A DNA stretch of 64,000 nt. Source: Flavobacterium aquaticum (GTDB lineage Bacteria; Bacteroidota; Bacteroidia; Flavobacteriales; Flavobacteriaceae). The notes beneath the pieces are model-generated. The model worked only from the letters and a program-made list of their open reading frames with translations. It was not told where the DNA came from and did no database searches. The stretch lies in the NCBI RefSeq assembly GCF_003259835.1, contig NZ_QLMI01000001.1, forward strand, positions 434,001 to 498,000, given 5' to 3'. Numbering within the stretch: the first letter of the stretch is position 1; every line of letters begins with the position of its first letter. A program made the translations under genes and the position numbers. Positions 18,015-36,667 of this stretch are shown one piece after another.

Positions 18015-19028
18015 TTAGTCATCATATCTTTTTAAAGATTTTTCTAAAATACTTTTTATTCGCAATCGCAAACGTTCGGGTTTTAGGACTTCTAAGCCAT
18101 CACCAAAGCCTAAAAGAATGCGCTCCATTTCGTAGTTTTCGATTAGAAATAGGTTGATAATGATGCTTCCGTCTTCGTTTTCTTTTAGTAAGCGTTGTGA
18201 ATTATGTAATGGTTTAGTCAATACATAAGGTGCGTTGTATTGATCTATCCAAAGTTGAATTGGTTTGGGTTGTAAGCCTGAATTTACAGTAACACCAATT
18301 ACATTTTTATAATAGTTCTCTGGATTAAAAGGTTGCTCCAAAAATGGCATTTGAAAATCGTAATCTATTTTAATAATACGGTCTAAGGCTAAATTAGCGA
18401 TGGGTTGACTGGCCTTTTTTCGACCAATAACAAACCAACGATTGTTGAATTCTTTTAAGATAAACGGATGGAAATTAAATTGTTGTTCTTCTTTGGATTT
18501 GAAGGACTTATACGTGATTACTAACACTATTTTTTTAACTATCGCTTGATAGATTTCATCTAAAAAATGCAAGCCTTTTAAACTCTCATTTTTATCTAAG
18601 TGAATGACGGGTTGGGTGTGTGATTTTTCGGCATAGATTTTATCTTCTAAGCGTTGCAGAATGTCTGAAACATCATTGAACAATGAGAAGTCTTTGAATT
18701 GCTTGAGCATGGAAACGGTTTCACTCAAGACATTGATATCTGTTTCTGTTAAGGGAATATCGGTAATGGAAAAATCTTCATCGGCATAATGGTAATACTT
18801 TTTGTCATAAACTTCAATAGGCGCATTGTAGCCCAATTTTTCGCTGCGCATCATCTGAATATCCAATTGAATGGTGCGTTTGCTTACGGGGTTTTCCTTG
18901 CCTTCGTATTCGTACAAAGCTTCGCTACAAGCATACATTAAATCTTCTAATGTCCATTGACGGTAGTTGTTTTGCAAACATTTGTCGATGGTTTTGTAGC
19001 GGATGAGCGCGTTTTTATTTTGAGCCAT
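18015..19028 (-). CDS. WYL-domain transcriptional regulator
   Basis: A 337-residue regulator: N-terminal winged-HTH (about 1-70, RYKTIDKCLQNNYRQWTL ... KRTIQLDIQMM), a middle helical part, a WYL domain (about 165-225, LVITYKSF ... HPFILKEFNNRWFVIGRKK) and a C-terminal WCX-like region ending LLGFGDGLEVLKPERLR. WYL domains bind nucleic-acid or nucleotide ligands and often control phage-defence and RNA-repair genes. The gene is divergent from the Pnkp-phosphatase/RlaP operon, and an inverted repeat (19090-19112) lies in the shared promoter region. I infer that it regulates that operon. Confidence 0.9.
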   Translation of the reverse strand: MAQNKNALIRYKTIDKCLQNNYRQWTLEDLMYACSEALYEYEGKENPVSKRTIQLDIQMMRSEKLGYNAPIEVYDKKYYHYADEDFSITDIPLTETDINVLSETVSMLKQFKDFSLFNDVSDILQRLEDKIYAEKSHTQPVIHLDKNESLKGLHFLDEIYQAIVKKIVLVITYKSFKSKEEQQFNFHPFILKEFNNRWFVIGRKKASQPIANLALDRIIKIDYDFQMPFLEQPFNPENYYKNVIGVTVNSGLQPKPIQLWIDQYNAPYVLTKPLHNSQRLLKENEDGSIIINLFLIENYEMERILLGFGDGLEVLKPERLRLRIKSILEKSLKRYDD

Positions 19029-19089
19029 TTTTTGAAGTGTTCAGTGGTCAGTTTACAGTGTTCAGTTTCAAAAATACACTTCTTTTTTT

Positions 19090-19112
19090 AGTGCGCAAAA
19101 TAATTGCGTAGT
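19090..19112. promoter_or_regulatory. Putative operator of the RNA-repair operon (inverted repeat), copy 1
   Basis: AGTGCGCA-N7-TGCGTAGT, an imperfect inverted repeat of 8-bp half-sites. The surrounding 30 bp (19083-19112) match 25793-25822 at 26 of 30 positions, and in both places a -7-like element begins 8 bp further on. The site lies between the divergent WYL and phosphatase genes. Confidence 0.6.
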
Positions 19113-19120
19113 GATAAAAC

Positions 19121-19128
19121 TATATTTG
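19121..19128 (+). promoter_or_regulatory. -7 element (TATATTTG) of the RNA-repair operon
   Basis: Exact TAnnTTTG match, 17 bp before the ATG at 19146 and 8 bp after the inverted repeat. Confidence 0.6.
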
Positions 19129-19145
19129 TATCAAAGAAATATATC

Positions 19146-19613
19146 ATGAAAAAACGAATCCTAAAAGACGAACCAAAATACACCCTTCAAAATCCTGATT
19201 TACCAAAAGCGATTATCTGTGATTTGGATGGAACTTTAGCATTGATGAATGGACGAAATCCTTTTGATGCCGCACGCTGTGAACATGACACATTAAATGA
19301 GCCTGTTGGAAATCTGTTGCGAAACTATAAAAAATTAGGCTATCAAATCCTTTTGGTTTCGGGAAGAGAAGAGCAGTTTAAACCACAAACCTTGTTGTTT
19401 TTGGAAAAGCACGCTATTGCTTTTGATGCACTCATCATGCGAAAAACCAAAGACTTTAGAAAAGATGCTATCATTAAAACCGAGATTTATAACGAACAAA
19501 TAAAAGACAACTATTTCATAGAATTTGTGTTAGACGACCGCAACCAAGTAGTAGATATGTGGCGAAAAGAACTAGGATTACCTTGTTTTCAAGTTTTTTA
19601 TGGGGATTTTTAA
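19146..19613 (+). CDS. Stand-alone Pnkp-type polynucleotide 3'-phosphatase (HAD family)
   Basis: A 155-residue HAD phosphatase that matches the phosphatase half of T4-type polynucleotide kinase/phosphatase, which removes 3'-phosphate or 2',3'-cyclic phosphate from broken RNA. Motif I is Asp26-Leu-Asp28-Gly-Thr in AIICDLDGTLALM, motif II LLVSGREEQ, and the C-terminal LDDRNQVVDMW ... CFQVFYGDF is the T4 Pnkp ending almost word for word. The kinase half is absent. The ATG at 19146 was preferred over one at 19104, which lies upstream of the TATATTTG element. First gene of the repair operon; RlaP follows after 68 bp. Confidence 0.85.
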   Translation: MKKRILKDEPKYTLQNPDLPKAIICDLDGTLALMNGRNPFDAARCEHDTLNEPVGNLLRNYKKLGYQILLVSGREEQFKPQTLLFLEKHAIAFDALIMRKTKDFRKDAIIKTEIYNEQIKDNYFIEFVLDDRNQVVDMWRKELGLPCFQVFYGDF

Positions 19614-19659
19614 TTCGATAAAATTCTTACAAAAACTAAAGATAAAACGATTTTTTTAT

Positions 19660-19667
19660 TACATTTG
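19660..19667 (+). promoter_or_regulatory. Possible internal promoter (TACATTTG) before the first RlaP
   Basis: Exact TAnnTTTG match, 14 bp upstream of the start at 19682; no clear -33 element. Confidence 0.35.
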
Positions 19668-19681
19668 ATAAGTACCTAATT

Positions 19682-20428
19682 ATGAACGATAAAATACAAA
19701 ATAAACTCAAACAAATTGAACTCGAAAAAGGAGTTGAAATCTTGTATGCAGTAGAATCGGGGAGTAGAGCTTGGGGATTTTCGTCGCCAGATAGCGATTA
19801 TGACATACGCTTTATCTACAAGCACGATTTGGATTACTATTTGTCGTTGTGGGAACAAACCGATGTGATTGAGTTCATGACCGAAGACGATTTAGACGGC
19901 AGCGGTTGGGATTTACGGAAAACCGTAAAATTATTAGCAAAAAGTAACGCACCTTTGTTGGAGTGGATTTATTCGCCAGTGGTGTATTATGAAAATGAGG
20001 CGTTTATGAACCAAATGCGAGCATTAGCAAAAGACTGTTTTTCGCCAGTGGCTTGTTTGCATCATTATTTGGGAACGACAAAGAATTTTATGGACGTTTG
20101 TGAGCAAGAAGAGGTAAAATTGAAAAGCTATTTTTATGCCCTACGCACGGCATTAGCTGGAAAATGGATTATTGAACACAACACCTTTCCACCAGTAGCT
20201 TTTAGAGAATTATTGCCTATTGCACCACAAAACATTCAAGAAAAAATAAAGGAATTAATGCAAATAAAAGCCAACCAAGACGAAAGCTACTTGCACCCAA
20301 AAGAAGTTTTGATTACCGATTTTTTGAAGGAAACGGTACAATTTAATATGGAAAATGCTGCGAGTTTGAGAAGTGGGAAGAAGATGAGTGAGGAATTGGA
20401 TGGAGTGTTTAGAGAATTGATAAAATAA
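19682..20428 (+). CDS. RlaP-type nucleotidyltransferase (RNA repair), copy 1
   Basis: A 248-residue protein of the RlaP family (PF10127, earlier YcgL), polymerase-beta-like nucleotidyltransferases found by comparative genomics in RNA repair loci. The catalytic loop reads AVESGSRAWGFSSPDSDYDIRFIY (about 20-43), giving the G-S ... D-x-D arrangement, followed by the characteristic DVIEFMTEDDLDGSGWDLRKT and LLEWIYSPVVY. It probably adds a nucleotide to RNA ends; no direct activity is known to me. Ten bp separate its stop from the AAA nuclease gene. The second copy (22725) is longer and diverged, so the pair is not a recent duplication. Confidence 0.85.
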   Translation: MNDKIQNKLKQIELEKGVEILYAVESGSRAWGFSSPDSDYDIRFIYKHDLDYYLSLWEQTDVIEFMTEDDLDGSGWDLRKTVKLLAKSNAPLLEWIYSPVVYYENEAFMNQMRALAKDCFSPVACLHHYLGTTKNFMDVCEQEEVKLKSYFYALRTALAGKWIIEHNTFPPVAFRELLPIAPQNIQEKIKELMQIKANQDESYLHPKEVLITDFLKETVQFNMENAASLRSGKKMSEELDGVFRELIK

Positions 20429-20438
20429 TAATTAATTT

Positions 20439-22715
20439 ATGATTACTAGTATTAAACTTGATAAAGTTGCAACATATACTAATGAAGTTAAGATTGATGA
20501 TTTAAAAAAAGTTAATTTTTTCTTTGGAAATAATGGTGCAGGCAAATCTACAATTGCAAAATTCCTGTATGATTTGAGTTTAAATGAAGAAAAAATATCA
20601 ATTCAATTTAAGAATTGTTCTCAAATAGGATATGATAATCATAATCAAGAAATATTAGTGTTTGATGAAAAATTTATACAAAGAAACTTTATTAATAAAA
20701 ACCTCCAAAACGGAATTTTTTCATTAAATCAAGCTAATAGAGAAATTGATGAATTAATTGAGAATGAGAATTTAAAGTTAAAGCAAAATGAGAACTACTT
20801 AAATAACATATTAAAAGATAGAAAAAATAAAATTTATTTAGATAACAGAGAATATATAGAAGATTCTAAAAGTTTTTGTTTTGAAGAAAGAAAGAAAACC
20901 TTGAATTCTTTTATAAAAATAAGAGATAAATTTCCTTTTAAGCAGACACAAAATAACTATGATAAAATTATTTCTATTATTAATAACAATCCAGATTTAA
21001 CTGAAATTACTTTTGAAAATTTATTAAATAATTATAACAAACTTTATGAAATTGATCACTTTGAAATCAAATCAAATATTTCTCCTAATATATATAAAAA
21101 AATTAGAAAGATTGAATTGAAGTTAAGTTCAATTTTAAATGAAATAATCATTGGTAATGATGATGTAGATATTGCTAAAATGATAAATGATTTAGGGATA
21201 AGTAATTGGGTTGAAGGTGGATTAAATATTTTAAAAATGGATTTATCTAACACAAAGTGTCCATTTTGCCAAAACGAGAGTATAAATGAAAATTTACTCA
21301 ATAAGTTTGAAAAATATTTTGATGAAAATTATAAGGCTAAAATTTCTCAAATATTAACTCTTAAAGCAGATTACGAATTAGCATTTAATGATTTATTATT
21401 AGAAATTAAAAATCTTACTAAAGAATTTAATTCAAAAAACATTGCCTCTGATTTATTTGAAGATTTAAAGTTATTATTTGAAAAAAATATAAGAATCATT
21501 GACCAGAAAATTAAATTCTCAAATGAAAAAAAGGAGATATTTTCAATTTATAATTTCAAAAATAATATTTCAAAAATAATATTTGAAATAAAGAATCATA
21601 ATGAAGATTTTAGTAATATTGAAAAGAATAAAGAAATATTCCTAGAGGATATTTGGAATTATCTTGCATATAATTGCAAACCACAAATAGAGTTAACTTT
21701 ATTAATTAGTAATGAGTTTGCGATTGATTACTTTTTTGAATTACAGATAGAAGAATATTTAAATGATAAAATAAGTGATTCGAGAGAGAAAATTGAAATT
21801 TGGAAAGAAGAAACAATAACAACCCAAGAAGCTGTTAAAAATATAAATACTATTTTAAGAAATAGTGGTTTTGAAGGTTTTGTGATAGATGAAAAAGAAA
21901 AAGTTAATAATATTTCTCAATATTTTTTGAGAAGAATTGATTCTCAAAATAATGAAAATGTATTCAAATCACTGAGCGAAGGTGAAAAAAATTTCATTGC
22001 TTTTTTATATTTTTTTCAATTATGCTTAGGAACAGACAATGTGTTAAAGAGTTCAAAAAAGAAAATTATAGTAATTGATGATCCTGTTTCTAGTTTGGAT
22101 AGTCAAATCTTATTCATCGTTACAACTTTGATCCATCAATTGATAGCAAAGAAAGGTAAAAAACCGAATAATCTAGAGCTTAGAAATAATAATATCGAAC
22201 AAGTTTTTATTCTTTCTCATAATATTTATTTTTATAAAGAAGTTTCGTTAAATCATCGCCCTATTTGTGAGGATAAAAATTTTTATCATGTATCTAAAAT
22301 CAAAAATGTTAGTGAAATTAAATGTCATGGAAATAAAAATAATATTTTAAATGATTATAGTTTGCTTTGGAAGACTCTAAACAATTTCAAGGGAACAAAT
22401 GATACTAACTTAAATATTGCAATATGTAACATAATGAGAAGAATTCTAGAAAGTTATATAAATTTCACAAATTTAGGAAGCGGTAATAGTACTTGGGATT
22501 GTTTGATTAATATTTCTTTAGACAACCCAAAATATTATATATGTAGTGCATTAATATCAGAAATCAATGAAGGTAGTCATAAAGTATCTCCTTTAGATGA
22601 TATATTTTTTCAAAGATTAGTAAATGAAGTTCCTCAAAACTTATTTGAAGCATTTGAATTAATTTTTAAAGAAATAGGCGAAGAACATTATAATGTAATG
22701 ATAAAAATAGATTAA
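20439..22715 (+). CDS. RloC/PrrC-like AAA ATPase with probable anticodon-nuclease domain
   Basis: A 758-residue ABC-type ATPase of the AAA_13 group. Walker A GNNGAGKST spans 30-38; a long helical middle carries a CxxC zinc-hook candidate CPFC at 274-277, as in RloC; the signature SLSEGEKNFIAFLYF and Walker B KIIVIDDPVSSLDS follow at about 510-555, then a VFILSHN switch. The C-terminal part has Arg667-x3-Glu671 (RRILESY) and His714 (NEGSH), which match in order the Arg-Glu-His triad of PrrC/RloC anticodon nucleases. I infer tRNA cleavage under ATPase control. It sits 10 and 9 bp from the flanking RlaP genes, and its base composition is visibly more AT-rich than theirs, which suggests insertion into an older operon. 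Confidence 0.8.
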   Translation: MITSIKLDKVATYTNEVKIDDLKKVNFFFGNNGAGKSTIAKFLYDLSLNEEKISIQFKNCSQIGYDNHNQEILVFDEKFIQRNFINKNLQNGIFSLNQANREIDELIENENLKLKQNENYLNNILKDRKNKIYLDNREYIEDSKSFCFEERKKTLNSFIKIRDKFPFKQTQNNYDKIISIINNNPDLTEITFENLLNNYNKLYEIDHFEIKSNISPNIYKKIRKIELKLSSILNEIIIGNDDVDIAKMINDLGISNWVEGGLNILKMDLSNTKCPFCQNESINENLLNKFEKYFDENYKAKISQILTLKADYELAFNDLLLEIKNLTKEFNSKNIASDLFEDLKLLFEKNIRIIDQKIKFSNEKKEIFSIYNFKNNISKIIFEIKNHNEDFSNIEKNKEIFLEDIWNYLAYNCKPQIELTLLISNEFAIDYFFELQIEEYLNDKISDSREKIEIWKEETITTQEAVKNINTILRNSGFEGFVIDEKEKVNNISQYFLRRIDSQNNENVFKSLSEGEKNFIAFLYFFQLCLGTDNVLKSSKKKIIVIDDPVSSLDSQILFIVTTLIHQLIAKKGKKPNNLELRNNNIEQVFILSHNIYFYKEVSLNHRPICEDKNFYHVSKIKNVSEIKCHGNKNNILNDYSLLWKTLNNFKGTNDTNLNIAICNIMRRILESYINFTNLGSGNSTWDCLINISLDNPKYYICSALISEINEGSHKVSPLDDIFFQRLVNEVPQNLFEAFELIFKEIGEEHYNVMIKID

Positions 22716-22724
22716 TTTATCAAA

Positions 22725-23783
22725 ATGACCATCCAAGACCTTAAATCCCACAACCTAATCCTTTTCGAAGTCATTTCGGGGAGTAAGTCGTTTGGGTTAA
22801 GCACACCTACTTCTGATACGGATATAAAAGGCGTTTATTATTTGCCTAAAGCCCAGTTTTACGGGTTGCATTATATGCCGCAAATCAGTAACGAAACCAA
22901 TGATGAAGTGTATTATGAGTTGGGTCGTTTTGTGGAGTTGTTGTTAAAAAACAATCCTAATATTTTAGAAATATTAGCTTCGCCAGCAGATTGTATTTTG
23001 TACAAACATCCGTTAATGGAGCGTTTGCAATTGCAAGATTTCTTGTCAAAACTGTGCAAAGATAGTTTTGCTGGTTATGCCATGACACAAATTAAAAAAG
23101 CCCGTGGTTTAAATAAGAAAATCGTTAATCCATTACCCAAAGAGCGCAAGAGTTTATTAGATTTTTGTGCAATTTTAAACGGTTATGATTCGGTTCCGTT
23201 ATCTAAATGGTTAATGGAACAAAACCTTTTTCAGGAACAATGTGGGTTAATCAATGTTCCCAATGCCAAAGGAATTTATGCGGTGTTTTATGATTCTGAT
23301 ACAACCTTAGGGTATCGTGGCATCATCAAAAATGAATTGTCTAACGAAGTTTCGGTTTCTTCCATTCCAAAAGGAGCTGAACCTATTGGGTATTTGTCGT
23401 GCAATTTAGAAGGCTATTCCAAATATTGTAAAGAATATGCCGAGTATTGGGATTGGATAGAAAAACGCAATGAAGAGCGCTACAATACCAATCAACAACA
23501 CGGCAAAAATTACGACAGTAAAAACATGATGCATACGATACGTTTGCTACAATCGGCTGAACAAATTTTAGCCACTGGAACATTGAATATTCGCGTTTCC
23601 AATCGCGACGAATTGTTAGCCATAAAAGCAGGCGAAATGGAATACGATGCGTTATTACAAAAAGCAGATGATTTGATTGCTTCGATAGAAAATTTGTATA
23701 CAGTGTCAGATTTACCAGAAGTTCCTGATAGTGAAAAACTGCTTGGTGTTTTAGTGGAAATGAGAGAGGAATTATATCGTTAA
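22725..23783 (+). CDS. RlaP-type nucleotidyltransferase (RNA repair), copy 2
   Basis: A 352-residue RlaP-family nucleotidyltransferase. The catalytic loop is EVISGSKSFGLSTPTSDTDIKG (about 14-35), followed by VYYELGRFVELLLKNNPNILEIL and, near the C terminus, NMMHTIRLLQSAEQILATG. Compared with the first copy it has about 100 extra residues, including an insert at about 160-230. Two RlaP genes flanking one nuclease-like gene suggest that they act on different RNA ends or at different steps (inference). A parvulin gene follows after 10 bp on the same strand. Confidence 0.85.
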   Translation: MTIQDLKSHNLILFEVISGSKSFGLSTPTSDTDIKGVYYLPKAQFYGLHYMPQISNETNDEVYYELGRFVELLLKNNPNILEILASPADCILYKHPLMERLQLQDFLSKLCKDSFAGYAMTQIKKARGLNKKIVNPLPKERKSLLDFCAILNGYDSVPLSKWLMEQNLFQEQCGLINVPNAKGIYAVFYDSDTTLGYRGIIKNELSNEVSVSSIPKGAEPIGYLSCNLEGYSKYCKEYAEYWDWIEKRNEERYNTNQQHGKNYDSKNMMHTIRLLQSAEQILATGTLNIRVSNRDELLAIKAGEMEYDALLQKADDLIASIENLYTVSDLPEVPDSEKLLGVLVEMREELYR

Positions 23784-23793
23784 ATTATTCAAA

Positions 23794-24372
23794 ATGAAAC
23801 AACTTTTTACATTATTATTACTAATTACTTTTTCAAATTTAACTGCTCAAAAGATTGATTTAACTGCAATTAATTCAATTGAAGATGCAGAAAAATACAA
23901 AGAAATAAATACTGATAGATTTACAATTATAGATTATATCGCAACAACAAAGGACAGTTTAAATTATTATAAAAATCAATTAAGTGAAAAGAGTAAAACT
24001 GAAAACATAAAAGTTTTAGAAGTCAAACCTATTGTTGCGATGAAGGTAAATTATATTTTCTTTTATGGCAAAACCCTTTCAAAAAAAGAAATTGATTTAA
24101 AACGTAAAGAAATTTTGGATTTATATGATAAAGGTGTCTCATCTGATGAATTAGTTGCTAAATACACTATGGATCATAATAGTAAACCCGGAGGAAACTT
24201 TGGTTGGATTGATGATGTAAATGTTGAACCAACATTTAGAGAAGCCTTAAAAAAACATAAAAAAGGAGATGTCTTTTTAGTTGATACGCCAGAACTGAAT
24301 TGGTATTATGTTGTATTCAAGTTATATGATGATGTTGAAAAAGTAGCGATATATTATATAAAAGTACTTTAA
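23794..24372 (+). CDS. Parvulin-type peptidyl-prolyl isomerase, exported
   Basis: A 192-residue protein with a signal peptide (MKQLFTLLLLITFSNLTAQ) and a rotamase domain in the second half: YIFFYGKTLSKKEIDLKRKEI, DELVAKYTMDHNSKPGGNFGWIDD and LVDTPELNWYYVVFKLYD, the pattern of PpiC/SurA parvulins. It should fold proteins in the periplasm. It starts 10 bp after RlaP copy 2, so it may be read through from the repair operon, but a periplasmic folding factor has no obvious part in RNA repair and may be a chance neighbour. Confidence 0.82.
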   Translation: MKQLFTLLLLITFSNLTAQKIDLTAINSIEDAEKYKEINTDRFTIIDYIATTKDSLNYYKNQLSEKSKTENIKVLEVKPIVAMKVNYIFFYGKTLSKKEIDLKRKEILDLYDKGVSSDELVAKYTMDHNSKPGGNFGWIDDVNVEPTFREALKKHKKGDVFLVDTPELNWYYVVFKLYDDVEKVAIYYIKVL

Positions 24373-24378
24373 TTCTAG

Positions 24379-24386
24379 TATATTTG
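24379..24386 (+). promoter_or_regulatory. Promoter element (TATATTTG) of a short transcription unit
   Basis: Exact TAnnTTTG match. The expected start point falls within a few bases of the ATG at 24395, so the small ORF would have almost no leader. Confidence 0.5.
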
Positions 24387-24394
24387 CCCTCGAA

Positions 24395-24496
24395 ATGAAA
24401 ACACAAAAGCAACATATTAGTCTAAATTTATATCGCTCAGCGATAGATTTCCCTATGGAAATTAATGGACGTTGTATGTGTTTTTATGAAGAATAA
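24395..24496 (+). CDS. Small ORF (33 residues) with two embedded hairpins
   Basis: Frame MKTQKQHISLNLYRS ... EINGRCMCFYEE in a promoter-to-terminator unit of about 170 bp. I recognise no family. It may be a leader or stand-alone small protein, or the unit may be a structured small RNA in which the frame is accidental: the DNA holds two adjacent perfect stem-loops (24431-24445 and 24447-24462). It carries a Cys-Met-Cys near the end; a second small ORF at 24910 also has Cys-Met. Confidence 0.35.
   Translation: MKTQKQHISLNLYRSAIDFPMEINGRCMCFYEE
24431..24462 (+). ncRNA. Two tandem hairpins in a short transcript, possible small RNA or leader
   Basis: TATCGCT-c-AGCGATA (7-bp inverted repeat, one central base) is followed one base later by ATTTCC-CTAT-GGAAAT (6-bp stem). 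With the promoter at 24379 and terminator at 24532 this fits a stand-alone structured RNA. No downstream gene is controlled in an obvious way. Confidence 0.4.
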
Positions 24497-24531
24497 TTAT
24501 TGTTTTTAGTAAAATTACACCAAAATATACG

Positions 24532-24562
24532 AAACGTCCTTTGAAAAAAGGGCGTTTTTTTT
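24532..24562 (+). terminator. Rho-independent terminator of the first short unit
   Basis: AAACGTCCTTT / AAAGGGCGTTT stem with a GAAA-type loop, then a long T-run. Confidence 0.8.
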
Positions 24563-24592
24563 GTTTAAAAATGATTGTAGAAAGGATTTTTG

Positions 24593-24614
24593 ATGCTGAA
24601 ATCGAGTTCAGCAT
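24593..24614. repeat. Hairpin repeat ATGCTGAA / TTCAGCAT
   Basis: Perfect 8-bp stem with a 6-base loop. A related CTACGCTGAACTGAAG stretch occurs at about 25878. It resembles dispersed GTTCAGCATGACA repeats of Bacteroidetes. Nothing else is seen in 24615-24780 apart from AT-rich DNA. Confidence 0.45.
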
Positions 24615-24832
24615 GACAGAAATAGAAAAAAAAGTAAAAAAATGTTTCATGATAAAACGAAATAGTAAAAAATAAGAGTGAATGCGTAACCAAATGAGAG
24701 ACAGTCATTTGAAAAATTCGAGGTATCTGTTGGAAAACGGACAGGATTTTTATTGTCTAAAATTTAATATAACTAATTGATTGTCAATAAAATAATTTTA
24801 AAAAAGATTTGGAAGTTACTTTTTTTTGACTT

Positions 24833-24840
24833 TATCTTTG
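24833..24840 (+). promoter_or_regulatory. Promoter (TTG-N21-TATCTTTG) upstream of the second short unit and the tRNA array
   Basis: TATCTTTG with TTG at 24809-24811, a full flavobacterial promoter match. It is the nearest recognisable promoter upstream of the tRNA array, but a small ORF and a strong terminator lie between. Confidence 0.65.
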
Positions 24841-24850
24841 CCCCAGAAAT

Positions 24851-24880
24851 CAGTTGACAGTCACAGTGGTCAGTTGGCAG
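24851..24880. repeat. CAGT-type short repeats
   Basis: CAGTTGACAG, CACAGTGGT and CAGTTGGCAG in succession. A similar CAGTGGTCAGTTTACAGTG stretch lies at 19040-19058. Confidence 0.4.
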
Positions 24881-24909
24881 AAATCAGATATTTAAAAAAT
24901 ATAATAATT

Positions 24910-25047
24910 ATGAGAACACGATATAACATTCAAAAACTAAATACAATAAGCATGATTGATTGTTTTAATCCTTCACGTAACGTAGCTCCGAAATATGATT
25001 TCGGATGTATGAATAAACAGGTGCAAACTAATAGGCATTTGGGATAG
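24910..25047 (+). CDS. Small ORF (45 residues) before the tRNA array
   Basis: Frame MRTRYNIQKLNTISMIDC ... RNVAPKYDFGCMNKQ ... NRHLG, no family recognised. It lies between a good promoter (24833) and a strong terminator (25071). A perfect 7-bp hairpin (24988-25004) lies inside the frame. Promoter, small ORF, hairpin and terminator directly before a tRNA array suggest a leader that could set read-through into the tRNAs, or an independent small gene. Both readings are inferences. Confidence 0.4.
   Translation: MRTRYNIQKLNTISMIDCFNPSRNVAPKYDFGCMNKQVQTNRHLG
24988..25004 (+). other. Hairpin CCGAAAT-ATG-ATTTCGG within the leader ORF
   Basis: Perfect 7-bp stem with a 3-base loop, 67 bp before the terminator stem. 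Confidence 0.5.
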
Positions 25048-25070
25048 TAGTATTCCATTGTTATGATATG

Positions 25071-25097
25071 AAGCACCTTTTATGAGGTGCTTTTTTT
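25071..25097 (+). terminator. Terminator or attenuator just upstream of the tRNA array
   Basis: AAGCACCT / AGGTGCTT stem, 6-base loop, T-run. Only 16 bp separate it from the first tRNA, too little for a separate full promoter, so the array must be read through it or processed from a longer transcript. Confidence 0.8.
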
Positions 25098-25113
25098 ATG
25101 CCCAAAAAATATT

Positions 25114-25185
25114 GATTCTGTAGCTCAAGGGTAGAGCAGTGAGCTGTTAACTCAAAGGTTGTAAGTTCGAATCTTACCAGAATCG
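25114..25185 (+). tRNA. tRNA-Asn (GTT)
   Basis: Cloverleaf folded by eye: acceptor GATTCTG/CAGAATC (7 of 7 pairs), D arm GCTC/GAGC with GG, anticodon loop CTGTTAA with GTT at 25146-25148, T arm GTAAG-TTCGAAT-CTTAC. The top pair of the anticodon stem is a G-A mismatch. Discriminator G; no encoded CCA. Confidence 0.85.
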
Positions 25186-25190
25186 CGACC

Positions 25191-25264
25191 GATTTTGTAG
25201 CTCAATTGGAAAGAGCATTTGCCTACGAAGCAAAGGGTTGAAGGTTCGAGTCCTTCCAAAATCA
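25191..25264 (+). tRNA. tRNA-Arg (ACG)
   Basis: Acceptor GATTTTG/CAAAATC, D arm GCTC/GAGC, anticodon arm TTTGC-CTACGAA-GCAAA with ACG at 25225-25227, T arm GAAGG-TTCGAGT-CCTTC. Only 5 bp from the preceding tRNA. No encoded CCA. Confidence 0.9.
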
Positions 25265-25288
25265 CACGAGTTCTTTAGAAAGGAACAA

Positions 25289-25361
25289 GGCTTATTAGGG
25301 TTACTGGCTAACCTTCCCGACTGTCTCTCGGGAGAAACGGGTTCGATTCCCGTATAAGCCG
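25289..25361 (+). tRNA. tRNA-Asp (GTC)
   Basis: Acceptor GGCTTAT/ATAAGCC, anticodon arm CCCGA-CTGTCTC-TCGGG with GTC at 25323-25325, T arm ACGGG-TTCGATT-CCCGT. A short GTTCTTT/AAAGGAAC hairpin lies in the spacer before it and might guide processing. No encoded CCA. Confidence 0.9.
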
Positions 25362-25390
25362 CAATAAACTAATCTTTTGATTAGTTACAT

Positions 25391-25463
25391 CTGGGAAGAT
25401 AACGATTGGTTGTTTACCTGCTTTGGATGCAGGAGGTTACAGGTTCGAGTCCTGTTTCCCAGA
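25391..25463 (+). tRNA. tRNA-Pro (TGG)
   Basis: Acceptor CTGGGAA/TTCCCAG, D arm TAAC/GTTG, anticodon arm CCTGC-TTTGGAT-GCAGG with TGG at 25424-25426, T arm ACAGG-TTCGAGT-CCTGT. Position 8 is G, not the usual T. No encoded CCA. Confidence 0.87.
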
Positions 25464-25469
25464 CAAAAT

Positions 25470-25552
25470 GGAAGTACGTCAAAGTAGGAGAGTTGAGCTT
25501 GTCTGTAAAACAAGTGCTTCATGCTGAGTAGGTTCGAATCCTACTACTTTCA
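25470..25552 (+). tRNA. tRNA-Tyr (GTA)
   Basis: Acceptor GGAAGTA/TACTTTC (one G-T pair), anticodon arm CTTGT-CTGTAAA-ACAAG with GTA at 25505-25507, a 13-base variable region as in bacterial class II tRNA-Tyr, T arm GTAGG-TTCGAAT-CCTAC. Position 8 is C. No encoded CCA. Confidence 0.87.
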
Positions 25553-25558
25553 CAAAAT

Positions 25559-25631
25559 TAATTTGTGATGTAATTGGTTAGCATAAGAGATTTTGATTCT
25601 CTCTGTTCAGGTTCGAGTCCTGACAAATTAA
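25559..25631 (+). tRNA. tRNA-Gln (TTG)
   Basis: Acceptor TAATTTG/CAAATTA (7 of 7), anticodon arm AGAGA-TTTTGAT-TCTCT with TTG at 25593-25595, T arm TCAGG-TTCGAGT-CCTGA. Six bp from the preceding tRNA. No encoded CCA. Confidence 0.88.
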
Positions 25632-25635
25632 CTTA

Positions 25636-25709
25636 GCAGGAATGGCGAAACTGGTAGACGCGTCAGATTTAGAATCTGAATTTTGAGAGTTCGATTCTCT
25701 CTTCCTGTA
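25636..25709 (+). tRNA. tRNA-Leu (TAG) lacking the long variable arm
   Basis: Acceptor GCAGGAA/TTCCTGT, D region GGCGAAACTGGTAGACGC as in normal bacterial tRNA-Leu, anticodon arm TCAGA-TTTAGAA-TCTGA with TAG at 25670-25672, T arm GAGAG-TTCGATT-CTCTC. The variable region is only 5 bases (25680-25684); bacterial tRNA-Leu normally has a class II arm of more than ten. Whether leucyl-tRNA synthetase accepts it is open. Confidence 0.85.
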
Positions 25710-25714
25710 CTATT

Positions 25715-25788
25715 GGAACAGTGGTGTACATGGTGTTGCACGTTAGTCTGAAGAACTAAAGGTATTTGTTCGATTCAAATCTGTTCCA
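25715..25788 (+). tRNA. tRNA-Phe (GAA)
   Basis: Acceptor GGAACAG/CTGTTCC (7 of 7), D arm GTG/CAC around ATGG, anticodon arm TTAGT-CTGAAGA-ACTAA with GAA at 25750-25752, T arm ATTTG-TTCGATT-CAAAT. Last clear cloverleaf of the array; a T-run (25793-25799) follows. No encoded CCA. Confidence 0.88.
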
Positions 25789-25799
25789 CAAGTTTTTTT

Positions 25800-25822
25800 A
25801 CTACGCAGAATAATTGCGCAGT
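25800..25822. promoter_or_regulatory. Putative operator (inverted repeat), copy 2, between tRNA array and slipin
   Basis: ACTACGCA-N7-TGCGCAGT: the half-sites are inverted repeats with one mismatch. The 30 bp 25793-25822 match 19083-19112 at 26 of 30 positions. The T-run at its left edge may also end the tRNA transcript. Confidence 0.6.
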
Positions 25823-25830
25823 AGGTTTTG

Positions 25831-25838
25831 AATCTTTG
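25831..25838 (+). promoter_or_regulatory. Putative promoter element (AATCTTTG) of the slipin unit
   Basis: One mismatch to TAnnTTTG, placed at exactly the same distance from the inverted repeat as TATATTTG at 19121. It would drive a transcript with a leader of about 660 nt that includes the tRNA-like remnants before slipin. Confidence 0.4.
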
Positions 25839-26069
25839 TTCAGCAATAAAGAAGTTCATAAATATAATGTGATTTAGCTACGCTGAACTGAAGTTTTTCC
25901 TTACGTCGAAATGACAATATGGAGTTTAAAAATATCAAGCAAGTCTTGTTGGGTGTTTCTGTATGGCACTATTGCAGTATTCGTTTCGCAATTGCGGATG
26001 ATGTTGTACTGTTCAACTTGGCTTGGAGGTTTTGGTGGTTTTCCAAAAAATCATCTCACTCTATGGGTC

Positions 26070-26093
26070 ACGGGTTCGATTCCCGTACATACT
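26070..26093 (+). pseudogene. tRNA-like 3' fragment (T arm plus acceptor strand)
   Basis: ACGGG-TTCGATT-CCCGT followed by ACATACT is a perfect tRNA T arm and 3' acceptor strand, but I find no matching 5' half at normal distance. A TTTTGG/CCAAAA hairpin with a 7-base loop lies at about 26033-26051. It may be a decayed tRNA or one with an insertion. Confidence 0.45.
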
Positions 26094-26096
26094 TCG

Positions 26097-26160
26097 GGTA
26101 TGTTAGTTCAGTCTGGTTAGAACAATAGATTAATCGTAGGTTCGAATCCTACACACATTT
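26097..26160 (+). ncRNA. tRNA-like element lacking an anticodon arm
   Basis: GGTATGT and ACACATT can pair as an acceptor (one mismatch, two G-T pairs); D arm GTTC/GAAC with GG is intact, and T arm GTAGG-TTCGAAT-CCTAC is perfect. Between D and T arms there are only 11 bases, so no anticodon stem-loop. Either a degenerate tRNA or a tRNA mimic. Confidence 0.5.
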
Positions 26161-26162
26161 TA

Positions 26163-26207
26163 GGTATGTGTTTGACAGTGGTTGTTACCAACAGACTCAA
26201 AATCTGT
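26163..26207 (+). pseudogene. tRNA-Leu (CAA)-like 5' fragment
   Basis: A D-like region with GTGGTTGTTACCA is followed by anticodon arm ACAGA-CTCAAAA-TCTGT (CAA at 26198-26200), but no T arm with TTCGA follows. Read as a truncated tRNA-Leu. From here to 26505 I see only a TTAGGAA/TTCCTAA stem-loop (26300-26335) and no gene. Confidence 0.45.
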
Positions 26208-26505
26208 TTGACAGAGTAGCATAGCTCTTTAAAAGAATGCACCATAAGAAAATCTTCGGACTTGGTCAGTTTTGACTCGACTCGTTCGTAAAGAAACACT
26301 TAGGAAAAGACCTGAAAAAGGCTTCGTATTCCTAACCGTTCTTTTGCTTTTGTATTTGCTTGTTGTTCGCTACGGCTAACTTCAAAATAGAATAGAAACC
26401 CATTAGAATGCTTTTGATTACTAACTTTTTTCCGTTTTGAACTTTGGACGAAGGACTGAAGGTTTTCTTTTTAAATGAATGTTTAATGATAACTATAAAT
26501 AAATT

Positions 26506-27603
26506 ATGATCGACAGAATTACAATTCAGGCATACCAAGTAGGTTTGGTATTAGAAAACAGAATGTTAATCGATGTATTAACAAAAGGAAAATATTGGAT
26601 TTTAGGAAATAAAGAAGTTTTAATTTTTGAAATGAATCAACCTTTTCAATCGAGATTTGAATTAAACTCTTTGTTGAAACATGAAAAATTAGCTTCCATG
26701 TTAGAAGTTGTAGATGTTATGGATAACGAATTGGTAATTCAAATCCAAAACGGAATTTTCAAAGATGTTTTAACTACTGGAAAATATGCTTTTTGGAAAG
26801 GAGTTTATGAATTTCAATTTGTGAAAATTGATTTATCTAAAGTGGAAATTACTGAAGAAATTTCAATGTCTTTATTGGAAAATTTTAAATTAAAACCATA
26901 CACTAGAAAGTTTCAAGTGTTGAACTTTGAAAAAGGTTTGTTGTTTGTGAATGGCGCTTTTGTTAAAGAATTGGCTGCTGGAAATTACTATTTCTGGAAT
27001 AACGCCATTCCAATTGAAGTTAAAAACGTAGATATTCGTCAGCAACAAATGGAAATTGCAGGTCAAGAATTATTGACAAAAGACAAAGCAACTTTGCGAA
27101 TTAACTTCTTTGTCCGTTACCAAGTAATTGATGCAGTTAAAGCTTTGGTAAACAACAAAGAATACGACAAACAGTTGTATGTGTTGATGCAATTGGCTTT
27201 ACGAGCTTTAGTTGGTAGCTACACTTTAGACGAGTTGTTGAACAAAAAAGACACGATTTCAAAAGAAATTTTAGAAAATATGTTGGAGAAAATCAACGCC
27301 TTAGGTTTAAGTGTTGCCGATGCTGGAATAAGAGATGTTATTTTGCCAGGTGATATGAAAGAAATCATGAATCAGGTATTGGTAGCAGAGAAAAAAGCAC
27401 AAGCCAACAGTATTATGAGACGGGAAGAAACGGCTGCAATGCGAAGCATGTTAAACACCGCTAAATTAATGGAGGAAAACGAAATGTTGTGGAAGTTGAA
27501 AGAGATGGAATACGTGGAAAAAATTGCTGATCGAATTGGTGAAATCACCATTTCAGGAAGTGGTAACGTAATCAGTCAATTGAAAGACATTTTCGTTAAA
27601 TAA
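26506..27603 (+). CDS. Slipin (SPFH/band-7 family) protein
   Basis: A 365-residue SPFH-family protein. The N-terminal part repeats a short beta motif (GLVLENRMLIDVLTKGKYWIL, then GIFKDVLTTGKYAFW and GLLFVNGAFVKELAAGNYYFW), followed by the band-7 core VDIRQQQMEIAGQELLTKDKA, FFVRYQVIDAVKALVN and a helical C-terminal part rich in Glu/Ala. It has no obvious membrane helix, unlike classic slipins. I recall slipin genes near tRNA genes and RNA-repair genes in other bacteria, which fits this setting, but the role is not proven. A terminator follows immediately. Confidence 0.85.
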   Translation: MIDRITIQAYQVGLVLENRMLIDVLTKGKYWILGNKEVLIFEMNQPFQSRFELNSLLKHEKLASMLEVVDVMDNELVIQIQNGIFKDVLTTGKYAFWKGVYEFQFVKIDLSKVEITEEISMSLLENFKLKPYTRKFQVLNFEKGLLFVNGAFVKELAAGNYYFWNNAIPIEVKNVDIRQQQMEIAGQELLTKDKATLRINFFVRYQVIDAVKALVNNKEYDKQLYVLMQLALRALVGSYTLDELLNKKDTISKEILENMLEKINALGLSVADAGIRDVILPGDMKEIMNQVLVAEKKAQANSIMRREETAAMRSMLNTAKLMEENEMLWKLKEMEYVEKIADRIGEITISGSGNVISQLKDIFVK

Positions 27604-34378: not shown

Positions 34379-36667
34379 ATGAAAAAAATATACTATTTGG
34401 TATTGCTGTTATTTGTTTCTCTAGCAGCATTTTCACAGAGTCAGAATTATATGAGTTACCAAGCGGTAATAAGAAATTCTTCAAACAATTTGATTACTAA
34501 TCAAGCCGTTGGAATGAGAATTAGCGTTTTACAAGGTTCTGTCGTTGGTACAGAAGTTTATGTAGAAACACAGACTCCTATTTCAAACATTAACGGATTA
34601 ATTACATTAGAAATAGGTAATGGAACTCCAACAATTGGTACTTATAATACAATAAATTGGGCAAATGGTCCTTATTTTATTAAAACGGAAACAGATCCTA
34701 CAGGCGGTAATTCATATACAATTGTTGGTGTATCTCAATTAATGAGTGTTCCTTATGCGCTATATGCATTAAATTCAGGAAGCTCAATAGCAGGTCCAAT
34801 GGGTCCACAAGGTCCAGCAGGAAATGATGGTTTAGATGGAGCTACAGGTCCAATGGGACCACAAGGTCCAGCAGGTAATGATGGTTTAGATGGAGCAACA
34901 GGTCCGATGGGTCCACAAGGTCCAGCAGGAAATGATGGTTTAGATGGAGCTACAGGTCCAATGGGTCCTCAAGGTCCAGCAGGAAATGATGGATTAGACG
35001 GAGCAACAGGTCCAATGGGTCCACAAGGTCCAGCAGGATTAAACGGTGTTGATGGAATAAATGGTTTAGACGGAGCTACAGGTCCTATGGGTCCTCAAGG
35101 TCCAGCAGGAAATGATGGATTAGACGGAGCAACAGGTCCAATGGGTCCACAAGGTCCAGCAGGATTAAACGGTGTTGATGGAATAAATGGTTTAGACGGA
35201 GCTACAGGTCCTATGGGTCCTCAAGGTCCAGCAGGAAATGATGGATTAGACGGAGCTACAGGTCCAATGGGTCCTCAAGGTCCAGCAGGAAATAATGGTT
35301 TAGACGGGGCAACAGGTCCGATGGGTCCTCAAGGTCCAGCAGGATTAAACGGTATTGATGGAATAAATGGTTTAGACGGAGCTACAGGTCCAATGGGTCC
35401 TCAAGGTCCAGCAGGAAATAATGGTTTAGACGGGGCAACAGGTCTGATGGGTCCTCAAGGTCCAGCAGGATTAAACGGTATTGATGGAATAAATGGTTTA
35501 GACGGAGCTACAGGTCCTATGGGTCCTCAAGGTCCAGCAGGAAATGACGGATTAGACGGAGCTACAGGTCCAATGGGTCCACAAGGTCCTGCAGGATTAA
35601 ATGGTGTTGATGGAATTAATGGTTTAGATGGAGCTACAGGTCCTATGGGTCCTCAAGGTCCAGCAGGAAATGATGGTTTAGACGGAGCAACAGGTCCAAT
35701 GGGGCCACAAGGTCCAGCAGGAAATGATGGATTAGACGGAGCTACAGGTCCAATGGGTCCTCAAGGTCCAGCAGGAAATGATGGTTTAGACGGAGCAACA
35801 GGTCCAATTGGGCCACAAGGTCCAGCAGGAAATGATGGATTAGACGGAGCTACAGGTCCAATGGGTCCTCAAGGTCCAGCAGGAAATAATGGTTTAGACG
35901 GGGCAACAGGTCCGATGGGTCCTCAAGGTCCAGCAGGATTAAACGGTATTGATGGAATAAATGGTTTAGACGGAGCTACAGGTCCAATGGGTCCTCAAGG
36001 TCCAGCAGGAAATAATGGTTTAGACGGGGCAACAGGTCTGATGGGTCCACAAGGTCCAGCAGGATTAAACGGTATTGATGGAATTAATGGATTAGATGGA
36101 GCTACAGGTCCGATGGGTCCACAAGGTCCAGCAGGAAATGATGGTTTAGACGGAGCAACAGGTCCGATGGGTCCACAAGGTCCAGCAGGAAATGATGGTT
36201 TAGATGGAGCTACAGGTCCAATGGGTCCTCAAGGTCCAGCAGGTAACGATGGTTTAGACGGAGCAACAGGTCCAATGGGTCCTCAAGGTCCACAAGGACC
36301 ACAAGGTCCAGCAGGTTCTCCAGCAACTATGGCATTCAGTTTTATGTCTAAAACATCAGATTACACAATTACTGCTGGTGACGCAACTAATAATCTTATC
36401 GTAAAAAATAGCAGTAACTCAGTTGTAACATTTACATTGCCAAGCGCAAGTGCAGTAGGAATAGGAAAAATGATTTATATTACATCTACTTCAACTTCAA
36501 CACCACAATCAATCAATGTATTAACAGATGGAAGTGATTTGTTCTTCGGATTTTACACAACACCTTCTGGAACAACGGATATCTCTGCAACTACATTGTC
36601 TAACATTAGTTGGGTTCAATTAATTAGTGATGGAACAAGTTGGAATATTTTAGGAATGTATTGGTAA
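34379..36667 (+). CDS. Secreted collagen-like repeat protein
   Basis: A 762-residue protein: signal peptide (MKKIYYLVLLLFVSLAAFSQ), a beta-rich N-terminal domain (about 21-136, YMSYQAVIRNSSNNLI ... VSQLMSVPYALYALN), then a Gly-X-Y region (about 139-650), and a C-terminal beta domain of about 110 residues ending SWNILGMYW. The collagen-like part consists of about 25 units of two kinds: 18 residues (GPMGPQGPAGNDGLDGAT) and 24 residues (with LNGVDGINGLDGAT or LNGIDG...). It lacks a T9SS CTD of its own. Likely a surface or matrix filament; copy number can vary by recombination. No proline-hydroxylating partner is seen nearby. Confidence 0.85.
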   Translation: MKKIYYLVLLLFVSLAAFSQSQNYMSYQAVIRNSSNNLITNQAVGMRISVLQGSVVGTEVYVETQTPISNINGLITLEIGNGTPTIGTYNTINWANGPYFIKTETDPTGGNSYTIVGVSQLMSVPYALYALNSGSSIAGPMGPQGPAGNDGLDGATGPMGPQGPAGNDGLDGATGPMGPQGPAGNDGLDGATGPMGPQGPAGNDGLDGATGPMGPQGPAGLNGVDGINGLDGATGPMGPQGPAGNDGLDGATGPMGPQGPAGLNGVDGINGLDGATGPMGPQGPAGNDGLDGATGPMGPQGPAGNNGLDGATGPMGPQGPAGLNGIDGINGLDGATGPMGPQGPAGNNGLDGATGLMGPQGPAGLNGIDGINGLDGATGPMGPQGPAGNDGLDGATGPMGPQGPAGLNGVDGINGLDGATGPMGPQGPAGNDGLDGATGPMGPQGPAGNDGLDGATGPMGPQGPAGNDGLDGATGPIGPQGPAGNDGLDGATGPMGPQGPAGNNGLDGATGPMGPQGPAGLNGIDGINGLDGATGPMGPQGPAGNNGLDGATGLMGPQGPAGLNGIDGINGLDGATGPMGPQGPAGNDGLDGATGPMGPQGPAGNDGLDGATGPMGPQGPAGNDGLDGATGPMGPQGPQGPQGPAGSPATMAFSFMSKTSDYTITAGDATNNLIVKNSSNSVVTFTLPSASAVGIGKMIYITSTSTSTPQSINVLTDGSDLFFGFYTTPSGTTDISATTLSNISWVQLISDGTSWNILGMYW
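34793..36326 (+). repeat. 54/72-bp tandem repeats encoding Gly-X-Y units
   Basis: About 25 near-identical units with only synonymous and a few coding changes (GLM or GPI in place of GPM). A four-unit block with NNG/LNGI order occurs twice (about 35279-35500 and 35873-36090), pointing to a segmental duplication within the array. Long identical runs make this region prone to recombination and to assembly error. Confidence 0.9.

Follow-up and report, generated by a model that had tools for sequence, protein, structure and literature searches.

A 64-kb stretch of the Flavobacterium aquaticum genome (contig NZ_QLMI01000001.1, positions 434,001 to 498,000 of the forward strand; hereafter the window) carries an RNA-repair operon and a slipin gene, and the question raised by this locus is whether the two are controlled by one regulator. 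The elements follow one another in the order: a divergent gene of a WYL protein, operator 1, the genes HAD-RlaP1-AAA_13-RlaP2-rotamase, eight tRNA genes, operator 2, a leader of about 680 nt and the slipin gene. A sequence-only reading had noticed the same 30-bp block before the repair operon and before the slipin unit, and had suggested that one regulator, most likely the WYL protein, controls both. Comparison with related genomes makes it likely that an autoregulated WYL repressor controls the RNA-repair operon, as well as a structured YrlA-like RNA together with slipin, by means of a shared operator.

Two copies of one operator in the window

Direct comparison of the 30-bp blocks at 19083-19112 and 25793-25822 confirmed their identity at 26 of 30 positions. 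Each contains an inverted repeat, AGTGCGCA-AAATAAT-TGCGTAGT at 19090-19112 and ACTACGCA-GAATAAT-TGCGCAGT at 25800-25822, and the first copy is the less perfect one, as had been claimed, with two mismatches between the arms versus one in the second. Eight nucleotides past each palindrome, at the equal distance noticed before, stands a -7-like element (TATATTTG, 19121-19128, and AATCTTTG, 25831-25838), the first of which fits the pattern TAnnTTTG and the second does not. When the window was searched with a 21-mer, allowing up to three mismatches, these two sites alone were found, and a two-site result occurred in none of 100 dinucleotide shuffles. Direct 30-bp pairs identical at 26 or more positions number 163 in the window, 158 of them lying within a protein repeat at 34.8-36.3 kb and five, including the operator pair, outside it. 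A position matrix gave scores of 30.4 (copy 2) and 30.0 (copy 1), with 11.9 for the runner-up in the window and a maximum of 19.7 over 60 simulated 64-kb sequences; the matrix was made from 18 hand-chosen seed sites, both window sites among them, and the scores of seed loci are partly circular.

In the 2.82-Mb genome, the two window copies are the only exact matches of RYGCRNAATAATTGCGYAGT, and the strict palindrome TRCGCA-N7-TGCGYA occurs solely at these same two places. A clear third copy was not found genome-wide, with seven matches at three mismatches versus four for a reversed control. The dozens of copies at unrelated genes, by which the sequence-only reading would have recognised just another dispersed repeat, were not seen. 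The 26/30 identity would suit such a repeat or a recent duplication without function, but the genome holds just two copies, both within this locus, and many genera keep the arms and the promoter spacing while the spacer changes, which makes this explanation extremely improbable. The inverted repeat might also act as an RNA hairpin, for example as a terminator of the tRNA array, since copy 2 is palindromic and lies directly past tRNA-Phe. Against this, the T-run of the + strand precedes the palindrome, a terminator scan of 24300-26600 omits it, copy 1 is not behind any array, and TTTG stands at a fixed distance from it; a role as an RNA hairpin is thus very improbable.

Recurrence of the operator and its candidate regulator

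The strict palindrome and the WYL protein were each sought in 199 genomes of the family (genomes are denoted G and loci L below). With a self-set cut, hits at E 1e-98 or better were counted as WYL orthologs; these occur in 29 genomes, and seven weaker hits were scored as absent. The strict palindrome was present in 27 of the 29 genomes with a WYL ortholog vs 27 of the 170 others (Fisher p=3.4e-16, a guide value that ignores kinship), and the reversed control pattern in 18 of all 199. A site with a score of at least 16 lies within 1.5 kb upstream of the WYL gene in 26/29 loci, and in 18 of these 26 it is 36-41 bp from the WYL start. Among the matches listed, 51 strict sites belong to 21 WYL genomes; by our own reading, 46 are in RNA-repair, WYL, slipin or array loci, three are elsewhere (L129, L142 and L146), and two had no surroundings retrieved. 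In relatives, the operator precedes rtcB, RlaP1, TPR/PrfH-rtcB units and WYL, and it also stands between the array and slipin. The comparison of the same promoters in related genomes, which the sequence-only reading had called for, hence found the operator again at the same kinds of genes.

A second set consisted of 80 named loci found with slipin, possibly overlapping the first set and coming from Flavobacterium, Chryseobacterium, Epilithonimonas, Winogradskyella, Aquimarina, Chitinophaga, Runella, Emticicia, Chryseolinea, Proteiniphilum and other genera. A site scoring at least 20 is present within 1300 bp before slipin in 64 of the 79 loci with at least 900 bp upstream. Sites are 24 times as dense there as in the rest of these loci, and no matches were obtained with the reversed matrix. 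The gap between palindrome and TTTG is 11-12 nt at 63 of 65 sites, so that the rigid geometry of operator and promoter noticed in the window is general. Outside the slipin upstream windows 38 sites were counted, 19 of which adjoin rtcB, WYL, HAD or RNase T-type genes. In F. cucumis (L190) a site precedes rtcB and RlaP1, and in F. odoriferum (L192) HAD, RlaP1 and RlaP2.

The regulator and the slipin operator also occur together. Slipin was found in 23 genomes, of which 13 combine WYL with an operator at slipin, one has WYL only, one the operator only and eight have neither (p=1.6e-4, kinship ignored); in this count L036 (score 16.2) was taken as absent and L053 (score 21.8) as present, and some of the sites are matrix seeds. 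A phage origin of the slipin unit was considered and rejected: a viral scan gave three distant slipins, 38-47% identical, and the operator was absent in the retrieved stretches. On one GC-rich contig of the viral collection, a 38%-identical slipin is preceded by 36 tRNA genes (L298:893-7044).

Only one further genome in the sample, G127, belongs to the same genus; it has a WYL protein 79% identical to that of the window and five strict sites in one cluster; a search for slipin in it found none. One site immediately precedes Hen1, behind which come the genes of a PNKP-type ligase, a PNKP kinase-phosphatase and TatD. The gene of a T4-type RNA ligase directly follows a second site, and the far end of the stretch carries RlaP. 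The operator regulon is independent of any single repair chemistry. It joins RtcB, the set of Hen1, PNKP-type and T4-type ligases, and RlaP with HAD, and can therefore be used to find unknown RNA-repair genes by their promoter.

The following mechanism is proposed. A dimer of the divergently encoded WYL protein would bind TRCGCA-N7-TGCGYA. The palindrome covers the -33 region, because its end lies 11-12 nt before the TTTG of the -7 element, and the bound protein would most likely block RNA polymerase there. If transcription starts a few nucleotides past the TTTG, as assumed here, the palindrome would extend from about -41 to -19 with its centre near -30, a position that would therefore favour a polymerase-excluding repressor. 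BrxR and CapW are WYL repressors of defence systems with a palindromic operator. A signal of RNA damage, probably a nucleic-acid ligand at the WYL domain, would lift the block, leading to the expression of WYL itself and of the HAD phosphatase, RlaP1, the PrrC-like cargo, RlaP2 and the rotamase, while transcription starting at copy 2 would yield a structured RNA that contains a permuted tRNA module, and then slipin. Autoregulation, through the palindrome at WYL's own promoter, is proposed from the 36-41 bp spacing calculated in silico.

A serious rival, although on the whole an unlikely one, is that the WYL protein is an activator, similar to PafBC and DriD, WYL-type activators that recruit polymerase with a ligand. 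The palindrome would then replace the -33 element, and ligand-bound WYL would recruit polymerase. From the TTG in the right half-site to the -7 element there are only about 14 nt, below the spacing usual in Bacteroidota, so the promoter may lack a working -33 element. However, a centre near -30 is within the polymerase footprint, which is typical of repressors, and the functional analogue TrcR is a repressor (PMC10272220).

It is also conceivable, but quite unlikely, that another regulator binds the palindrome and that WYL is merely one more member of the regulon. L053 has the operator and a WYL ortholog was not detected in it, many slipin loci of Flavobacterium and Chryseobacterium have the operator and no WYL gene in the stretch (it may lie beyond 10 kb), and a kinase and a response-regulator-like gene, a pair recognised by eye, occur in 8 and 7 of 54 loci. 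The WYL cluster, however, is found in 29 of the same 54 loci, many of them fetched for WYL, and the strong co-occurrence of WYL with the operator and the fixed spacing to the WYL start also speak for the WYL protein.

Several observations weigh against an autoregulated WYL repressor with this operator. The strict palindrome is missing from two WYL genomes, G028 and G033, whose weaker sites (27.4 and 22.4) carry one or more changes. G196 carries the operator at slipin and no detected WYL ortholog, and G156 has WYL and no operator at slipin. Three of the five sites in G127 precede genes without a Pfam match or not searched. In the named loci, 15 of 79 are without a score-20 site before slipin (L197, L201, L209, L212, L220, L227, L237, L245, L253, L256, L257, L263, L264, L265 and L267), three of them (L227, L245 and L264) with weaker sites of 17-19, and 19 of the 38 outside sites are next to none of the reference genes. 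Pfam found no helix-turn-helix in the WYL protein, the residues 1-150 of which are without a match, where WYL regulators have a winged-helix DNA-binding domain, and a sequence search gave no solved structural relative. The distance between operator and WYL start is 61 bp in the window, outside the 36-41 bp of relatives. The sole rtcB found in the genome, located on a different contig and adjoining prfH and a TPR gene, was considered as a third target and rejected, as this cluster has no operator (best score 7.5 over L187). Finally, repression is preferred over activation solely by analogy with BrxR and CapW and from the position of the palindrome.

Thus, of the suggestion that one regulator, likely WYL, serves both units, the shared operator stands, and WYL is its best candidate by co-occurrence, fixed spacing and recurrence; its binding is what we infer from them. 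Both the WYL and the WCX domain of this candidate are above the Pfam cut-off. In L035 (9247-10968) a WYL regulator is fused to a PhyH-type dioxygenase domain, and WYL frames of 521-609 amino acids in ten other loci may resemble this fusion. As to the 61-bp distance, CAGTGGTCAGTT is common to 19042-19075 and 24864-24880, and its first copy may be part of an insert that accounts for 61 bp instead of about 38 bp between operator and WYL start.

The slipin leader RNA and the tRNA array

The features of the locus are listed in Table 1; protein functions are predicted from the matches given there.

Table 1. Features at 18-27.6 kb of the window, in order of position
Feature	Position	Strand	Basis or remark
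WYL-WCX transcription regulator, proposed operator binder	18015..19028	-	Pfam WYL 2.2e-9, WCX 2.9e-11
Operator block copy 1 (palindrome 19090-19112)	19083..19112	+	between divergent WYL gene and repair operon; score 30.0
-7 element TATATTTG, proposed repair-operon promoter	19121..19128	+	TAnnTTTG fit; spacing kept at slipin operators of relatives
HAD phosphatase, PNKP type	19146..19613	+	Pfam HAD_PNKP 2.1e-51
RlaP1, RNA-repair nucleotidyltransferase	19682..20428	+	Pfam RlaP 1.4e-78
AAA_13 ATPase, PrrC-like candidate defence protein, RlaP1-RlaP2 cargo	20439..22715	+	Pfam AAA_13 3.1e-96; PADLOC PDC-S06 1.8e-169, PrrC 1.9e-9
RlaP2, second nucleotidyltransferase	22725..23783	+	Pfam RlaP 6.6e-24
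PPIC-type rotamase, last gene of the repair operon	23794..24372	+	Pfam Rotamase_3 5.7e-6
Terminator-like hairpin past the repair operon	24531..24558	+	terminator scan
Bacteroidota-type promoter match TTTG-N21-TATCTTTG, no operator	24808..24840	+	pattern scan, ahead of array
Leader peptide open reading frame, 45 amino acids	24910..25047	+	AGGTGC 25019-25024 can pair with terminator arm
Terminator-like hairpin, proposed attenuator	25070..25093	+	20 bp before tRNA-Asn
Eight tRNA genes: Asn, Arg, Asp, Pro, Tyr, Gln, Leu, Phe	25114..25789	+	ARAGORN
Operator block copy 2 (palindrome 25800-25822)	25793..25822	+	10 bp past tRNA-Phe; score 30.4
-7-like element AATCTTTG, proposed leader RNA-slipin promoter	25831..25838	+	TTTG spacing in relatives
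5' domain of slipin leader RNA	25936..26060	+	covarying helices
Circularly permuted tRNA-like (YrlA-like) module: T-arm, capped acceptor stem, D-arm, CTAT/ATAG closure	26061..26128	+	covariation; Rfam YrlA 35.4 bits
Second T-arm	26129..26160	+	with D-arm, Rfam tRNA match 26097-26160, only 64 nt, 39.1 bits
Slipin (SPFH/Band 7 protein)	26506..27603	+	Pfam Band_7 2.4e-23

The slipin leader RNA is, judged from the covariation of its helices, a tRNA mimic with a permuted tRNA tip. In an alignment of 40 leaders, 48 pairs in eight helices are formed in 96.2% of the cells, and 28 pairs are changed on both sides; the structure was derived from the same alignment on which it was tested, except for the closing stem, which we added. 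All five measures were above those of all 500 shuffles and of all slid versions. The 40 leaders were taken from 63 (62 named loci and the window), omitting poorly aligning Cytophagales and Chitinophaga types and near-duplicates, as well as L198, L205, L239, L241 and L244 for no stated reason. Of the 18 pairs in the permuted tRNA module itself (T-arm, acceptor stem, D-arm and closing stem), 14 are changed on both sides. YrlA is itself permuted. The window scores below the Rfam cut-off of 69 for YrlA (RF02553), as noted in Table 1, and 13 of 15 relatives gave 28.9-46.1 bits, L013 and L014 being without a match. In seven close leaders, including that of the window, the tRNA-like part is exchanged and the flanking domains are nearly identical.

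In one genome (G171) the operator is followed by tRNA-Pro, a GOLLD match, tRNA-Tyr, the YrlA-like RNA and slipin. This match (L016:3390-3885, - strand) reached 124.9 bits vs a cut-off of 150, and up to E 0.001 GOLLD was absent in L034, L039, L042 and L134. A further case concerns L145 and L117: in G057, the operator after the array precedes a protein of 750 amino acids instead of slipin; a relative of this protein (746 amino acids) is in the G127 cluster, and a third member has a weak RING-type match only.

The label of tRNA remnants, under which the slipin unit had been described, is not quite right: ARAGORN found eight complete tRNA genes in the array before copy 2, and the tRNA-like pieces come after that copy. 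The proposal that the whole 18-27.6 kb forms one regulon was borne out only in part, as the array has its own consensus promoter match and a terminator-like hairpin, and no operator stands before it in the window. TTTG-N17-23-TAnnTTTG is the promoter consensus of Bacteroidota, and its single match on the + strand within 18-28 kb is the one at 24808-24840. A full promoter does not fit into the 20 bp between the second hairpin and tRNA-Asn, and the array would therefore be read through this hairpin. The case for an attenuator rests on the relatives, because two hairpins were found in the scanned region and 1.4 were expected by chance.

Arrays for this comparison came from the 46 loci with at least two upstream tRNAs; 39 were used, and the rest extend beyond the locus or contain no two tRNAs in a cluster. 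A hairpin is present within 280 bp upstream in 33 of the 39 vs 71 of 3000 random windows. Of these hairpins, 25 start 31-45 bp ahead of the first tRNA and the other eight are 69-217 bp away; by these criteria none was found upstream in L206, L210, L213, L214, L256 and L263. The best complement to the terminator arm lies 46-53 nt upstream in 25 of the 33 leaders and, in the window, near the end of the leader open reading frame. It is at least 6 nt long in 19 of the 33, one of them far away, and by strict pairing six leaders have none. The leader is not unusually stable as a single-sequence fold (z -1.35), and the leader peptides, listed for 26 chosen loci and the window, are loosely conserved beyond close relatives (13 aligned).

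We read this arrangement as a putative translation-coupled attenuation of the tRNA array. A ribosome completing the leader open reading frame would mask the pairing segment, allowing the terminator to form, while stalled translation would free the segment and the array would be transcribed. In L125 and L137 a site scoring 20-22 precedes the array, and in L044 a site is inside it. In the window, a second TATATTTG element at 24379 is followed by a small open reading frame (24396-24497) ahead of the hairpin at 24531; this frame is possibly a relic or another leader.

The array tRNAs differ from ordinary ones at base 37. According to the 32 distinct main tRNAs of the same genome, G37 follows G36 and A37 is found otherwise. 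This rule is broken in 113 of 153 array tRNAs with G or C at position 36 vs 14 of 157 with A or U; the count covers 46 of the 80 named loci, those with at least two upstream tRNAs, and may include some ordinary tRNAs, with related arrays being non-independent and the rule coming from one genome. Pro-UGG has A37 in 24 of 24 cases and Asp-GUC has U37 in 26 of 28, while A37 is mixed in His (7/20) and Leu-UAG (7/26). The window array carries A37 for G37 in Arg, Pro, Gln and Leu, U37 for A37 in Asp and G37 for A37 in Phe, with Asn and Tyr unchanged. In Chryseobacterium sp. ZHDP1, for which 30 of 88 matches were seen, Pro and Leu have G37; the ordinary Arg-ACG, Gln, Glu and His were not covered, and there were two odd Asp calls. 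Phage tRNAs with changed anticodon loops have been proposed to resist nucleases (PMC10264068).

The gap between RlaP1 and RlaP2 holds defence-type genes in seven of ten loci (the window included) of Flavobacterium and close Flavobacteriaceae that have both genes on the + strand. As cargo, L238 and L244 carry Gabija, L193 carries Hachiman, L190 a HamB-type helicase, L199 an AAA/AriA-like ATPase and the window the PrrC-like protein, and L198 has a weak Ppl-like match; the gap is empty in L192, L212, L256 and in nine other loci of the family with both genes. Taken together, the locus might be a two-sensor emergency kit for translation, a picture that we put forward tentatively, as possible rather than probable. 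WYL would sense RNA damage and release the repair enzymes as well as the tRNA-mimic RNA and slipin, and the leader-peptide attenuator, lifted separately when translation fails, would release backup tRNAs, which through their changed base 37 might resist the anticodon nucleases, or escape the modification at this position, by which normal tRNAs are disabled, with the PrrC-like protein, Gabija or Hachiman being co-induced with repair.

Relation to known systems

The closest known system is the TrcR regulon of Anabaena. In Anabaena sp. PCC 7120, TrcR is an autoregulated repressor at the promoters of rtcB, of alr0739-alr0740 and of a silent array of 26 tRNAs; alr0740 encodes a slipin, and translational stress relieves the repression (PMC10272220). 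The likeness is that, here too, the same operator stands at an RNA-repair operon and at slipin. TrcR is a ribbon-helix-helix protein with another site, which overlaps the -10 box at the array, whereas the candidate here is a WYL-WCX protein with a palindrome over the -33 region. Moreover, an attenuator seems here to control the array, and the proposed regulon takes in RlaP, HAD and PNKP-type enzymes. In many relatives the operator precedes rtcB, unlike at the rtcB cluster of F. aquaticum itself.

In Salmonella, the RtcR-controlled rsr-yrlBA-rtcBA operon responds to RNA damage and encodes YrlA RNA with a tRNA-like domain (PMC7790460), and RNA repair is thus controlled together with a YrlA-type RNA, as proposed here. 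RtcR differs in being a sigma-54-dependent activator with a CARF domain (PMC4012209). In the text of the Salmonella paper (PMC7790460), the word slipin does not occur, and WYL appears in one reference title only.

A literature search covering what was available, with subscription papers largely outside it, gave among its listings no paper that places a WYL operator of Bacteroidota at rtcB, RlaP or slipin. Regulons of this kind are known from TrcR and RtcR; the one proposed here is set apart by the regulator family, the operator, the gene content and the layout with two controls. BrxR and CapW share with the locus a WYL regulator adjoining a defence or repair operon and a palindromic operator, and differ in their targets; the WYL protein here would act on RNA repair as well as on slipin with its structured RNA, and in more than one place per genome. 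In 2016, Burroughs and Aravind reportedly described RNA-repair systems whose gene partners include SPFH/Band-7 proteins and, next to a Band-7 gene, a novel tRNA-like RNA; we know of no operator, attenuator or position-37 pattern in that work.

With RtcR (Salmonella and E. coli) and TrcR (Anabaena) being the prior examples found, the WYL protein and its palindrome are a candidate regulator and operator for RNA repair in Bacteroidota. Slipin and the tRNA-mimic RNA would by this operator be placed in the response to RNA damage. Apart from this locus, the window contains at 34786-36290 the protein repeat mentioned above, whose units recur at multiples of 18 bp, mostly spaced by 54 bp, and which has by eye a collagen-type look.

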